From the NCBI GenBank assembly GCA_937920585.1, contig CAKZSB010000108.1, positions 1-64,000 on the forward strand: DNA of 64,000 bases, read 5' to 3'. The notes beneath the pieces are model-generated. The model did no database searches and had not been told where the DNA came from. It saw only the letters and a list, made by a program, of their open reading frames with translations. The position numbers and the translations under genes were made by a program. Below, piece by piece: positions 14,192-18,580 of the stretch (its first letter is position 1; every line of letters begins with the position of its first letter). This DNA is from an uncultured Granulosicoccaceae bacterium (GTDB lineage Bacteria > Pseudomonadota > Gammaproteobacteria > Granulosicoccales > Granulosicoccaceae).

Positions 14192-14914
14192 CTAGCTGCG
14201 TACCAGCATCCACCTCTCGCTGGATACGAACAAGCCGTTCATAAACAGCTGGTGATCTACCGTCAGTTGATCGTCAAGTAAATTTATCACCTTGATCTCA
14301 TGAATCAGGCGTGAGCTGTTCACTTTATTGTCACACGGCGTATCCGATCCCGCGTAGAGTGCATCTACGCAAGTTGCACGGTAGGGAAACCGTATCACGT
14401 CTTCGAAGATGGGATCTCGCGGATCGCCATTGCGCACTCTATATTTGTGATCGAACTTTATACTGGTGGGAGACAGGAACTCTATCGAGTAGTTTCGCCA
14501 CTTGGGAGCGTTGCGTCGCTTCAACTCAGGCGCAAGGTAAAGTCTGGTCAGTTTGACGCTGCGTTTGTCTGATTTTTCTGCTTCCAGCTTCAGCGCGCCG
14601 TTGTACTTGTGAATCACCTCGGCATCTATCTTGTAATGTGCCGTCTCGGCAGTACTGTTCGAGTAATGACCGGTACAGTTCACTGCCGAAGACTGCCCTC
14701 GCCATTTTCCGCCGAGGAGTTCGGCAAGCTCGAAAACCCTCTCTACAGGTTCGTCGTTCAATGCGCGACCGGTATCCAGATGAAAATAGGTTTCAGCGTT
14801 TTGCGTGTAACCGTCTGCATAGGTGTTGCAGGCGTGGACAGTATCCGCGGAAAAGCTCTGTGTGCTGAAAAGTAAAGCAGTTGAGGCAAGTGCCAAAGGC
14901 CAGATTCTAGTCAT
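14192..14914 (-). CDS. Secreted protein of unknown function
   Basis: The 240-residue protein begins MTRIWPLALASTALLF with a signal peptide ending near SFSA. ATG 14914 is preferred because AAGGAAG lies 8 nt before it, within the extra sequence that an upstream GTG would add. The mature part has five cysteines and is rich in predicted beta strands (charged and hydrophobic alternation, KYRVRNGDPRDPIFEDV). It probably acts in the periplasm or outer membrane. I do not recognise the family; it converges on the SH3-protein gene. Confidence 0.75.
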   Translation of the reverse strand: MTRIWPLALASTALLFSTQSFSADTVHACNTYADGYTQNAETYFHLDTGRALNDEPVERVFELAELLGGKWRGQSSAVNCTGHYSNSTAETAHYKIDAEVIHKYNGALKLEAEKSDKRSVKLTRLYLAPELKRRNAPKWRNYSIEFLSPTSIKFDHKYRVRNGDPRDPIFEDVIRFPYRATCVDALYAGSDTPCDNKVNSSRLIHEIKVINLLDDQLTVDHQLFMNGLFVSSERWMLVRS

Positions 14915-15246
14915 TAGCCGAACTTCCTTCACCGGGAGGGTGGGGTGGTTGGGCTAGGGACCATACCTCGATCGGTAGCGATGTGTTCTGAACGTGTTAT
15001 CACAACCATCTTTCGTGCTGTGAAAGCATTCACGTTAGGGTGATTCGAACAGCCACGCTACTATTGCATGATTTTCCAAAATGTGGAATTACGTCAAGGC
15101 CGCCGTTTGCGAATTGGTCTAGCATGACAGCGCTGCGTGCGCTAATGGCGCAAAACGCGGTAGCAAGCAGAACCGGGTGGCCCTCACTTTGGCGGTATGC
15201 GGTGAAATGTTACCTACCAATTGTATCCGGCTTGGGAGAACACCCA
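14915..15246. other. 332-bp intergenic region between divergent genes
   Basis: I see no convincing gene, RNA or repeat here. The plus frame is open from 15040 into the next gene, but the sequence before ATG 15247 has no ribosome site or family-like features. Confidence 0.45.
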
Positions 15247-15510
15247 ATGAGCAATGAATTTCTAGAACGGCTAAAGAATGGTTCTTTAACGCAAATCGAT
15301 CAACACTGCGAGATGCGCAACGACCTGGCTCCGGCGGCAAATCGACTGGCCCGTGGTGTTGCGGTTGGCGATGACTGGAAAGACTGGGAGCTTGCGCCTG
15401 AGTGGTCTGCCGAGAGCAGTCTCAAACAGAAAACTGATGAGCAACTTATTGGCGGGGCAAGTGCTGACAAACTACGTGGCGCGATTAACATGCTGGAACG
15501 GAGCGAGTAA
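15247..15510 (+). CDS. Small hypothetical protein, 87 residues
   Basis: The small soluble protein begins MSNEFLERLKNGS and is acidic (WKDWELAPEWSAES). It ends with a helical segment ASADKLRGAINMLERSE. GGAG lies about 9 nt before ATG 15247, and a strong terminator follows 30 nt after the stop, which supports a real transcription unit. No domain, signal peptide or membrane segment is seen, and I do not recognise the family. Confidence 0.65.
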   Translation: MSNEFLERLKNGSLTQIDQHCEMRNDLAPAANRLARGVAVGDDWKDWELAPEWSAESSLKQKTDEQLIGGASADKLRGAINMLERSE

Positions 15511-15540
15511 CGCCGCAGCACTGATTTGCGTGCAAACAAA

Positions 15541-15565
15541 AACGCCGGCTGATGCCGGCGTTTTT
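15541..15565. terminator. Bidirectional intrinsic terminator between convergent genes
   Basis: CGCCGGC at 15543-15549 pairs with GCCGGCG at 15554-15560 around TGAT, followed by TTTTT on the plus strand. The A-run before it gives a T-run on the minus strand. It can serve both the 87-residue gene and the coiled-coil gene. Confidence 0.9.
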
Positions 15566-15585
15566 ACTGTTACCTTAAGGTGGTG

Positions 15586-16848
15586 TTAACCCGACTTTCG
15601 CAAGCGGGCAGCATTGACTGCTGACGAACGATCGATCTGGGCTCGCACTTTCACATCGCTTACCTCTGGAATCTCGGGCAGCTGCTCTGCCTTCTGACGC
15701 TCTGCCTCAAGCATCGATTCGAGTTCGACAATTCGCGCCAGCAAGCTCTGTCCTGCCATGCGACGCTCTTCGGAAAGCAGCATTTCCAGCTTACTTATTC
15801 GGGCTCGAAGTTCGGCTTCCAGTGACTGATAGTCGGCCAACTGTTCGCTGAGATCCACACCCTTTGCAGTGGCATCTGCCAGGTCTGCAGTTTTCAGATT
15901 TAACTCTGCCTGCAGGCCGGCAATCTCTTTCTCCAGCCCGGCGCGCGCATTGTCATGTGCATCACCTTGTATGGCCATCGCGTTCTGCAGGTCTGCCAGT
16001 TGTTGCTTTGCGCCAGAGGCTTTGTCCTTTGCGGACGCAACAGCTCGCTCAGAGTCTGCCAGTTTCTGGCGCGTGTCGGCTTCAGCCTTGCGCAGTGCGT
16101 CAAAGTCACGTTGCAGATCGCCGTACTTGCGCTCATTCTCGGTGCGGGCGGTGTTTGCCTCCATCGCGGCGAATTTCTGCTTTTCTCGAGCATCGTTAAG
16201 CTCGGCTGCTCTTTGCTCAAGTGAGTTGATCTTTTGCTGTGCATCGGCCTGTGCATCGGCCAAAGCTTTTTGAAGATCTGCAATCTCGCGACGCAAAGCG
16301 GCTATATCATTCTGCGCGGCTGAGTTTTGCTGCTCGAGCTTAGCCTTTTCGGCCTGTTGTGCGGCGATCTCACGATTCAGTGCGTCCAGTCTGGCAGTAG
16401 CCTGTGCCAGTCGTTCGTCTGCATGCGCCAGCTGAGCATCTTTCTCAGCGATGCTGCTCTGGGCCGAGTTGTCGGCCAGGCGCAGCGCGTTGATGTCTTG
16501 CATCAGGCCAGTCTTGTCGGCCTGTGCCCGGGCTGACGCCGCCATGCTGTCCTTGATTTGCTGCTCGAGTTCGCGCTGGTGTCGCTCAGCTTCAGCAGCC
16601 GATTGATTGCGGTCGCTCAGCTCGCGGCGCAGTGCTGCGATATCAGCATCCTGCCGATCAAGATCATCGTGGGCTTGTGCAAGTGCATCTTTGATTGGCG
16701 GAATCGACTGTTCCGAGCGGCGCAGTCTCTGTCGCAACATTGACTCCGCTTTGGCTGCTTTGAAGCGCCGTAGCAACCAGCCGAAAATTCCGCTGAGTAT
16801 TGAGGCAACTGCCAACAGTGCCAGTACCTGGGTGATGAGATATATCAT
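15586..16848 (-). CDS. Membrane-anchored long coiled-coil protein
   Basis: The 420-residue protein has one N-terminal transmembrane helix (about 4-26, then RRFKAAK) followed by continuous coiled coil from about 30 to 385, rich in Ala, Glu, Gln, Lys and Arg (for example LAQATARLDALNREIAAQQ). The last 30 residues are less helical (PEIPEVSDVKVRAQI). The basic residues after the helix place the coil in the cytoplasm. It lies 27 bp after the BON/OmpA gene, so both are probably co-transcribed. A scaffold or spacer role next to the envelope is inferred; coiled coils carry little family signal. Confidence 0.8.
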   Translation of the reverse strand: MIYLITQVLALLAVASILSGIFGWLLRRFKAAKAESMLRQRLRRSEQSIPPIKDALAQAHDDLDRQDADIAALRRELSDRNQSAAEAERHQRELEQQIKDSMAASARAQADKTGLMQDINALRLADNSAQSSIAEKDAQLAHADERLAQATARLDALNREIAAQQAEKAKLEQQNSAAQNDIAALRREIADLQKALADAQADAQQKINSLEQRAAELNDAREKQKFAAMEANTARTENERKYGDLQRDFDALRKAEADTRQKLADSERAVASAKDKASGAKQQLADLQNAMAIQGDAHDNARAGLEKEIAGLQAELNLKTADLADATAKGVDLSEQLADYQSLEAELRARISKLEMLLSEERRMAGQSLLARIVELESMLEAERQKAEQLPEIPEVSDVKVRAQIDRSSAVNAARLRKSG

Positions 16849-16875
16849 ATTTGGTGGCTCCTGGGAGTTCGCTGT

Positions 16876-17988
16876 TTAGTCGGCAGAGTTGGTAGAGATA
16901 ACAGATTCATCGGCGCTTGCAGACGCAGGTTCAGTTGACAGGTGTATTTCAACCCGGCGATTTCTGGCTCGTCCTTCAACTGATTCGTTGCTGGCAACAG
17001 GTCTGAACTCGCCGTATCCGAATGCTGCGACAAGCTCCTCGGAGATGCCCAGATCAGTCAGGTGGCCACGAACGGTGTCAGAACGTCGCTCACTCAATCC
17101 CTGGTTGTAACCTTCACCACCAGTCACATCGGCATGGCCTTCGACCAGCACCTGGCTGATCTGGTTAACACATACGCCATTGACGACCGATGCTACAGCG
17201 TTGAGTTTGCCGTGGTACTGCTCTTCGATGTTGTAGTGATCAACTTTATAATTGAGCGTGCTGTTCTGCATGGTGTTGAAAATCGCTTCGCGGCATTCAT
17301 GGGTCACATGGAGATACGGATCAACAGTGATGTTGAGCATCACTTCAAGTGGTTCCAGCACCGGGCTGCGGGTGTCGATCAACTGCTCGATGGCGGTGCG
17401 GCGGTCGGTGTCGCTGACTACGCCTTTAAGAATGAAAAACTTGTCAGTGATGTGCAGATCGCCTTTGCTCAGCTGGGTAAGCGCGGCGATACCGGTCTCA
17501 ACTTTCTGCGGGCTGAAGGCTAGTGGCTCGGCACCAGTCTCTATTCCATCGCGAGCAATCGTGGTATCGAGAGGCAGGGCAGCAGGTATTGCGTCGAGTA
17601 AATCGAGAACTTCTTCGCTATCGACGATACCTGTAAGTTTGAGGTCACCTTCTGTGTAACGACCCTTGAAGTCAAAGGTGCGTTCCGGAAGTGGTTCGGG
17701 CGGGATGACCACATCAATAAGGTTGGCCGTTTTGCGTACGCCCCAAACGTTGTCCGCAATCTGCTCGATTTCGGTGGATTTCTCGTCCGACTCAACCGTG
17801 CCGAGAAGTGTGACGTCTCTACCGTCAACATCTATAGACACGTCGGGCTGGTATTTGGCTAAAACGATGTTGGAGCGTTGGGCTATATCTTGTTCTATTC
17901 TATCGGTATAGACGGTCGCGCCTACCCAGTAGACGATCCCCAAGAGTAAACCCAAAACCGCGAGTGATAGTAATCGCATATTATTCAA
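16876..17988 (-). CDS. Membrane-anchored BON- and OmpA-domain protein (ArfA/OmpATb-like layout)
   Basis: The 370-residue protein has an N-terminal transmembrane anchor (about 4-25). A BON domain follows at about 45-105 (VSIDVDGRDVTLLGTV), then a second BON-like segment around 175-240. The OmpA_C peptidoglycan-binding domain is at about 275-355, with VLVEGHADVTG, LSERRSDTVRGHL, FGYGEFRPVASN and GRARNRRVEI. The same order (helix, BON, OmpA) is known from mycobacterial ArfA. It heads a two-gene unit with the coiled-coil protein. It should link the inner membrane to the cell wall (inference). Confidence 0.9.
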   Translation of the reverse strand: MNNMRLLSLAVLGLLLGIVYWVGATVYTDRIEQDIAQRSNIVLAKYQPDVSIDVDGRDVTLLGTVESDEKSTEIEQIADNVWGVRKTANLIDVVIPPEPLPERTFDFKGRYTEGDLKLTGIVDSEEVLDLLDAIPAALPLDTTIARDGIETGAEPLAFSPQKVETGIAALTQLSKGDLHITDKFFILKGVVSDTDRRTAIEQLIDTRSPVLEPLEVMLNITVDPYLHVTHECREAIFNTMQNSTLNYKVDHYNIEEQYHGKLNAVASVVNGVCVNQISQVLVEGHADVTGGEGYNQGLSERRSDTVRGHLTDLGISEELVAAFGYGEFRPVASNESVEGRARNRRVEIHLSTEPASASADESVISTNSAD

Positions 17989-18235
17989 CCGACTATGTAG
18001 GTATGTTTAAGTACTGGCTCTACATACGTAACGGTTGGCTGGTTGAATCCTTTATCGACCCCGAGATAAATTGGCGCACTCCAGCGCCAGTAGCTTCAAC
18101 TTGCTTGCTGACGTGCCTGAATAGTGTTTTAAAAACAGCAGCTTGATTTTGTTTGTGACACCTGCAACTACTATCGATTTTGTGGTCTGTTCAGTCGTGA
18201 TTATTGTGGTTAGCCGGTATTTTGGCGTCAAATCG

Positions 18236-18451
18236 TCAACTGTTCATTGATATGACTACTTTAACCAGCAGTGCAATCAGCAACAGAAAAATAATGGTGC
18301 CGATGACCCCGGCAATAATAAAATGAGATGCCTTGCCATTAGAGAAATCACGCTCTCTATTGGCATTCGACTGGACTCCAAATGCAGCCGCCGCGACACT
18401 CTTGATTGTGCTCAGCAAACCGGTACCTGTCGGTTGTGATTGCTCGCTCAT
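18236..18451 (-). CDS. DUF2970 family small membrane protein
   Basis: The 71-residue protein begins MSEQSQPTGTGLLS. It has the family core KSVAAAAFGVQSNANRERDF followed by a single transmembrane helix near the C-terminus (FIIAGVIGTIIFLLLIALLV). The frame extends 17 codons upstream, but ATG 18451 fits the family. Function is unknown. The direction is shared with the OmpA/BON gene 250 bp downstream. Confidence 0.88.
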   Translation of the reverse strand: MSEQSQPTGTGLLSTIKSVAAAAFGVQSNANRERDFSNGKASHFIIAGVIGTIIFLLLIALLVKVVISMNS

Positions 18452-18580
18452 GCGAATTTCTCCGGTGGGGTGAACATTTGCGCGGGTTACGCTAAAAGCC
18501 ATTTCCTGTTAAGAACTGTGTGCGATAACCGGATAGGTCTGATGGGTACTTGTAAACAGGGTAGTTATACTCATACTATA

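Follow-up and report, generated by a model that had tools for sequence, protein, structure and literature searches.

Does the adjacency of a BON/OmpA protein and a membrane-anchored coiled-coil protein, observed at one locus of an uncultured Granulosicoccaceae bacterium, reflect a functional unit, and what might such a unit do? The locus lies within a stretch of 64,000 nucleotides (hereafter the window), for which a first-pass annotation made from the sequence alone had proposed that the two products could span from the cell wall to the cytoplasm. We find that the pairing is real and widespread, not local, and we favor its reading as a two-gene envelope anchor reaching from wall to cytoplasm, to which we assign a probability of about 0.55. 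Both genes are present where they had been placed (16876-17979 and 15586-16848, reverse strand), with the following features:

16876..17979, reverse strand: gene 1, encoding the 367-aa BON/OmpA anchor (TTG at 17988 as an alternative start)
17908..17976, reverse strand: N-terminal membrane helix of gene 1, residues ~2-24 (the modelled helix reaches residue 39)
17710..17841, reverse strand: first BON domain, modelled at residues 47-90 and matched by Pfam BON at 32-91 (PF04972, 3.4e-10)
17536..17673, reverse strand: predicted BON-type unit 2, residues 103-148 (E-E-H-E in the model; without Pfam match)
17323..17514, reverse strand: predicted BON-type unit 3, residues 156-219 (H-E-E-H-E in the model; without Pfam match)
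16957..17250, reverse strand: OmpA_C peptidoglycan-binding-type domain, residues 244-341 (PF00691, 2.1e-15; Pal/OmpA folds)
16858..16862, reverse strand: AGGAG, ribosome-binding-type site of gene 2, read from the sequence, within the 27-bp gap
15586..16848, reverse strand: gene 2, encoding a 420-aa membrane protein of one helix and a long coil
16762..16848, reverse strand: conserved membrane head of gene 2, residues 1-29, MxYLIxQ...LLxxA...GWxxR (alignments A3 and A6)
15682..16758, reverse strand: heptad-patterned coil of gene 2, residues 31-389 (heptad power and model)
15589..15861, reverse strand: conserved C-terminal block of gene 2, residues 330-420, common to a separate 231-262-aa protein
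15538..15565, no strand assigned: perfect 12-bp inverted repeat AAAAACGCCGGC TGAT GCCGGCGTTTTT located 3' of gene 2, terminator-like on both strands

The upper end of gene 1 was initially set at 17988, where a TTG may serve as the start; an in-frame ATG at 17979 is the other candidate. Pfam recovers an OmpA domain and a single BON domain, in agreement with the helix, BON and OmpA_C of the originally described order, which had included one further BON-like unit. The AlphaFold2 model (20 homologous sequences; mean pLDDT 85, pTM 0.49) comprises a long first helix, three beta-beta-alpha-beta units (residues 47-90, 103-148 and 172-219) and an OmpA fold; given these three units, the protein probably possesses three BON-type domains, not two. 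Structure comparison with VIA-align matches Pal/OmpA folds to the OmpA domain with Z-scores of up to 17.4, in alignments that cover mainly residues 220-351 and hence barely test the BON units.

Between the stop of gene 1, at 16876, and the gene 2 ATG, at 16848, lie 27 bp; the AGGAG precedes this ATG by 9 nt. Pfam returns nothing over its cut-off for gene 2, whose single membrane helix with a G-W motif is followed by ~360 helical residues with a heptad pattern, thus bearing out the earlier description of a one-helix protein with a coil of about 350 residues, encoded 27 bp downstream. At period 3.5, its heptad power reaches 0.572, whereas shuffled sequences give 0.153 +/- 0.042 and none of 2000 scored as high. 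The corresponding model is of modest confidence (8 sequences; pLDDT 71, pTM 0.22) and predicts long helices at residues 2-128 and 136-389 and a disordered tail. The inverted repeat downstream was spotted by eye and is absent from the list of the automated scan.

A search of 95 relatives recovered 22 full-length close homologues of gene 1, in the window's genome and the genus g4, distributed over two loci (A and B); the next matches are much weaker (E 6e-20). A coil gene lies directly 3' of the anchor gene in all 22 (12 at locus A, including the window, and 10 at locus B), the gap being 16-27 bp wide for the former locus and 2 bp for the latter. Locus A was not seen in three of the 15 g1/g4 genomes (G013, G031 and G033), two of which are 77-80% complete. 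The anchor of the sister genera is only 235-248 aa long at 19 of 20 loci, the exception (L131) being 654 aa; the one short version tested has one BON and an OmpA domain by Pfam. A head-bearing coil gene is next at 20/20 of these loci, of which L124-L131 were chosen for a known coil hit and the other 12 by their BON hit alone, and the head profile A3, built from g1/g4 sequences only, also matches all 20 partners. Larger anchors (492-977 aa) are paired at 17 of 21 loci; three of the unpaired ones are cut by contig ends and the fourth is the Rhizobium case considered below. The window's genome itself codes for six BON/OmpA and membrane-coil pairs (on contigs C108, C291, C420, C146, C244 and C2), differing in the lengths and tails of their coils. 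Anchor and partner co-vary at both loci (r = 0.81 at A and 0.82 at B; 0/2000 permutations as high), a correlation also expected from shared ancestry.

In all, we collected 87 distinct pairs, that is, 105 rows less 18 second copies of loci counted elsewhere (L165-L182, recognized by genome and identity). The gap measures -4 to 28 bp in 96 of the 105 rows, which fits co-translation of the pair, and the partner ranges from 159 to 1415 aa among the 87.

Beyond the family, a profile of the BON region finds matches in 60/369 gammaproteobacterial genomes at E <= 1e-5 and in 110/398 genomes of the phylum, many of the weaker ones being short and perhaps not BON/OmpA anchors. Among the matches listed, a contig scan uncovered pairs in a Methylothermaceae MAG (L183), Leucothrix (L186 and, from L. 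pacifica JCM 18388, L231) and Thermopetrobacter (L204), the partner adjoining the anchor at 4/4 of these loci, with the two genes 343 bp apart in Thermopetrobacter. The heads of these four, together with 18 from the family, constitute the head profile A6; consequently, it is tested independently only by a set of 34 outside-family gammaproteobacterial loci, drawn from 37 hits at E <= 2.1e-10 after three short ones were left out. A partner with a head at E < 1e-3 is found at 24 of the 34, in 12 families. The 10 without a clear partner comprise two with weak matches (L300, L303), five with another gene or none (L295, L297, L298, L299, L304) and three at or near a contig edge (L288, L305, L306). 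In another class of the phylum, a partner with a head at E < 1e-3 or an HhH domain occurs at 11 of 20 loci (L341-L360), three of these partners lying 177-343 bp off and L359 being apparently, from its proteins, the same locus as L204; of the remainder, two have a short three-helix protein and seven have none, one of them being contig-cut. As to the form of the partner in this class, it is down to a three-helix protein of ~100 aa in L342 and L343, and is a helix with a short coil in L355-L357 (ORFs of 108-136 aa). Among 402 records of a plasmid collection, one, a Rhizobium lusitanum megaplasmid, covers 80% of gene 1; there, 11 bp past the BON/OmpA gene, lies a gene for a membrane protein with two HhH units as judged by eye.

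Thus, the expectation that the coil gene would stand beside the OmpA/BON gene in most relatives is borne out (22/22, 20/20, 17/21 and 24/34), and at least 13 families of the sampled gammaproteobacteria have the pair, as do named alphaproteobacteria. These counts bear directly on the proposal that two unrelated envelope genes have stayed together by operon inertia. The neighbors of locus A are indeed also conserved; however, loci A and B and the loci of other families repeat the adjacency amid different surroundings, and a head-bearing next gene was found at 0/57 control OmpA loci without a BON-profile hit (42 of which had any next ORF, the other 15 having none within 400 bp), leaving inertia as a highly improbable explanation. 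The first-pass annotation had not recognized the pairing as a described system, and in agreement with this, we found none of this kind in the accessible literature, which excludes most subscription journals.

At locus A, the anchor ORF stays within 357-402 aa, whereas the uncut coil protein can be as short as 420 or as long as 1415 aa, which would correspond to coils of ~49 to 197 nm (at 0.1485 nm per residue, less ~90 residues of head and tail, if unbroken). We considered tandem repeats as the source of this change in coil length and rejected them, given that positions 15000-18500 of the window hold only one 12-bp repeat. The same lengths weigh on the alternative in which gene 1 encodes a stress protein or pore of the ArfA kind and the coil protein regulates it instead of acting as a mechanical partner. 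The likeness to mycobacterial ArfA, noted at the outset, stands at the level of fold: the best Foldseek hit of gene 1 is Rv0899/ArfA (2l26; E 1.5e-11, TM-score 0.30/0.41), in a superposition that is loose across the two domains (rmsd 14.9). It does not extend to the curated sequence model, as the NCBIfam ArfA profile (NF051434) matches gene 1 weakly, at 38.6 bits against a cut-off of 81; likewise, none of 10 matches from the window's own genome exceeds that cut-off, and a search of the control genomes with this model yielded no ArfA over it. A steady anchor with a coil of variable length fits a spacer better than a regulator, and we regard the ArfA-like alternative as distinctly improbable.

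The anchor reading places the working parts of the two proteins on opposite sides of the inner membrane. The partner has a GW motif within its first 60 residues in 83 of the 87 pairs, and K/R content is higher on the C-terminal side of the membrane helix than on its N-terminal side in 87/87, by which the coil should be cytoplasmic. Accordingly, the topology first envisaged for the coil does not look reversed, but net charge supports a C-in arrangement in only 76 of 105 rows (18 duplicates included). On the anchor side, a clear N-terminal hydrophobic stretch is seen in 80/87 proteins; an N-in orientation is favored by net charge in 84 of 105 rows but by K/R count in only 42 of 87. The window's gene 1 shows V-G-A before T, making a cleaved signal peptide possible; by eye, several homologues do not have such a site. 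We infer the periplasmic placing of gene 1 from the roles of BON and OmpA domains in other proteins. Of the elements by which we define the pair, that of the window has a partner directly downstream on the same strand, with a GW-bearing helix and K/R after it, and lacks the helix-hairpin-helix end that many but not all members possess.

What the coil would hold is best approached from its far end, where the window differs from many other members. Its partner does not end in a helix-hairpin-helix (HhH) domain; no remnant of one is visible by eye after gene 2 in the three own-strand frames of 15281-15600, and the HhH profile is missing from all g1/g4 partners of loci A and B. What it does have is the C-terminal block, which also ends a separate protein of 231-262 aa (L072-L083) that by eye has no membrane helix. 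At E <= 1e-5, the block profile finds 4 of 369 genomes of the class, namely the window's and three of f52, the nearest outside-family relatives by score. In the latter, the coil carries the same block (E ~1e-28) followed by an HhH domain, and the pair coexists with a separate block protein in 3/3 genomes. Since these nearest outside orthologues have the block and then the HhH, the simplest history is probably that the HhH was lost in the window's line and the block kept. Across 48 genomes of the family, pair and block protein occur jointly in 10, the pair only in 2, the block only in 2 and neither in 34, a pattern partly explained by one shared clade. The f52 block protein is 272 aa long in L377, and its open frame spans 253 aa at L378 and 328 aa at L379.

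HhH ends are frequent elsewhere: 16 sister-genus partners, picked by eye, have a common HhH-type end in a gap-free alignment (where tested, Pfam HHH_5 matches these ends only below its cut-off), and among the 34 outside-family loci, 11 match the HhH profile at E < 1e-5. Three partners given to Pfam (L186, L278 and L285) each contain DUF4332, a tandem-HhH domain, as their end; by eye, the L291 and L294 partners end in plain coil without an HhH. HhH folds often bind nucleic acid, so one could envisage a coil that binds the chromosome through its HhH end and links nucleoid and wall. Weaker Pfam and PDB matches of the module to the HhH of DNA polymerase IV, NusA and RadA, and the DUF4332/HHH_5 of the L278 and L186 partners, point in this direction, and the block proteins, with their Lys-rich tails, would be consistent with it. 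Against it, the partner HhH also matches the C-terminal extensions of NuoE, the ribosomal proteins L21 and S2 and the phasin PhaH, along with PDB entries for a complex I chain (9wqv) and the reaction-centre protein-O (8yy9). Since the module recurs in such proteins, it is not DNA-specific and we do not claim DNA binding for it; further, the window's copy is without an HhH, and the accessible text of the work on protein-O calls the role of these domains obscure (PMC12079452). We therefore consider a wall-to-DNA tether quite unlikely.

The same distribution suggests an alternative in which the pair is a scaffold with swappable cargo, the HhH being a tag read by another protein and different pairs holding different cargoes. 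It would account for the six pairs with differing tails in a single genome, for the recurrence of the module on NuoE, L21, S2 and PhaH and for partners without an HhH in other families, but the gene neighborhoods give no hint of a cargo; we regard this alternative as rather unlikely. In the window, the nearest neighbors code for SH3, DUF2970 and MlaA proteins (by Pfam) and for MutT-like and ABC transporter-like proteins (by eye). The surroundings of locus A, of locus B and of the block-protein loci are housekeeping genes, a different set in each of the three, and offer no functional clue. Two genes of the window without Pfam matches, at 14192-14932 (reverse strand) and 15040-15510 (forward strand), are conserved next to locus A across related genomes (clusters c14 and c6). 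At g4 loci, the block protein is often near an AMP-binding enzyme and RapA. In the sister genera (L124-L143), the pair is often flanked on both sides: immediately upstream by a gene for a further protein with a weak membrane head and an HhH-like end, and immediately downstream by an alpha/beta hydrolase gene and genes of ABC transporters.

Returning to the favored two-gene anchor, we propose that the first helix of gene 1 would hold it in the inner membrane, its BON-type and OmpA domains lying in the periplasm, where the latter would grip the wall. The gene 2 protein would sit beside it via its one helix, the membrane helices being the likely point of contact, and its long coiled coil would reach into the cytoplasm. 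In many relatives, the HhH at the end of the coil may constitute the cargo-holding end; in the window's version, which has no such end, the remaining block perhaps joins the separate block-bearing protein. The pair would thereby keep some object of the cytoplasm in place, or at a distance, with respect to the wall. The two genes with their domains, the conserved adjacency, the K/R pattern of the coil protein, the shared block and the HhH of relatives are observed; we infer the contact of the two proteins, wall binding in this instance, the cargo and the positioning role. A broader version of this reading, which we consider doubtful, holds that such pairs form a widespread and undescribed class of tethers: BON/OmpA would clamp the wall, a coil of pair-specific length (roughly 50-200 nm at locus A, if unbroken) would span the distance, a swappable HhH or block end would hold the cargo, possibly the nucleoid, and several pairs would set different distances from the wall. 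Were the complex real, the cell wall would be coupled mechanically and directly, across the inner membrane, to the deep cytoplasm, and the two genes would offer a handle on the placement of things inside a bacterial cell. The change in coil length between close relatives makes the idea of a ruler or spacer directly testable, while the pair offers a genetic setting for an HhH module whose role is described as obscure in the accessible part of its source (PMC12079452). Relative to the first-pass annotation, what is new is the multi-copy family, the HhH of cytoplasmic type in many relatives and its absence from the window's copy.

Several known systems share individual elements of this pair. A phage or defense origin was considered and rejected: the PHROGs and PADLOC matches of gene 1 span only its OmpA part (as does that to PADLOC ZorB, at 2.2e-11), and gene 2 has weak ones, mostly to the coil (best 1.5e-6 and 1e-4). 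The T6SS anchors TagL and TagP share the OmpA fold with gene 1, TagL (7bba) being among the Foldseek hits; however, T6SS OmpA anchors lie in T6SS loci, whereas the nearest neighbors of gene 1 in the window are of other kinds. In Acinetobacter baumannii and Paraburkholderia (L308, L309), genes for OmpA proteins with a BON-like region by profile lie beside T6SS-like genes (by eye) and have no coil; for these reasons, we treat them as a different thing and reject a T6SS anchor as the identity of the pair. The reaction-centre protein-O of Dinoroseobacter shibae (8yy9) combines an N-terminal membrane segment with the C-terminal HhH module of many partners; unlike them, it has a two-helix hairpin as its membrane part and belongs to a photosynthetic complex, and its description, in the part accessible, mentions no BON/OmpA pair (PMC12079452).

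The architecture of the anchor is itself already known: 'BON + BON + OmpA', the domain order of gene 1, is cluster 7 in Table 1 of the DolP paper, recorded mainly from alpha-, beta- and actinobacteria with 9 gamma organisms, and the accessible text of that paper makes no mention of a neighboring coil gene (PMC7806268). ArfA (OmpATb/Rv0899) of Mycobacterium tuberculosis resembles gene 1 in its membrane helix, BON-type middle and OmpA_C end, and differs in that the sequence of gene 1 falls under the curated ArfA cut-off. The partners of ArfA in its operon, ArfB and ArfC, are small membrane proteins. Finally, the MotB/ZorB stators, like gene 1, couple a membrane helix to a wall-gripping OmpA domain. 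Unlike gene 1, they are without BON domains; moreover, their partner is the multi-helix MotA/ZorA channel, whereas that of the window is a single-helix coil.
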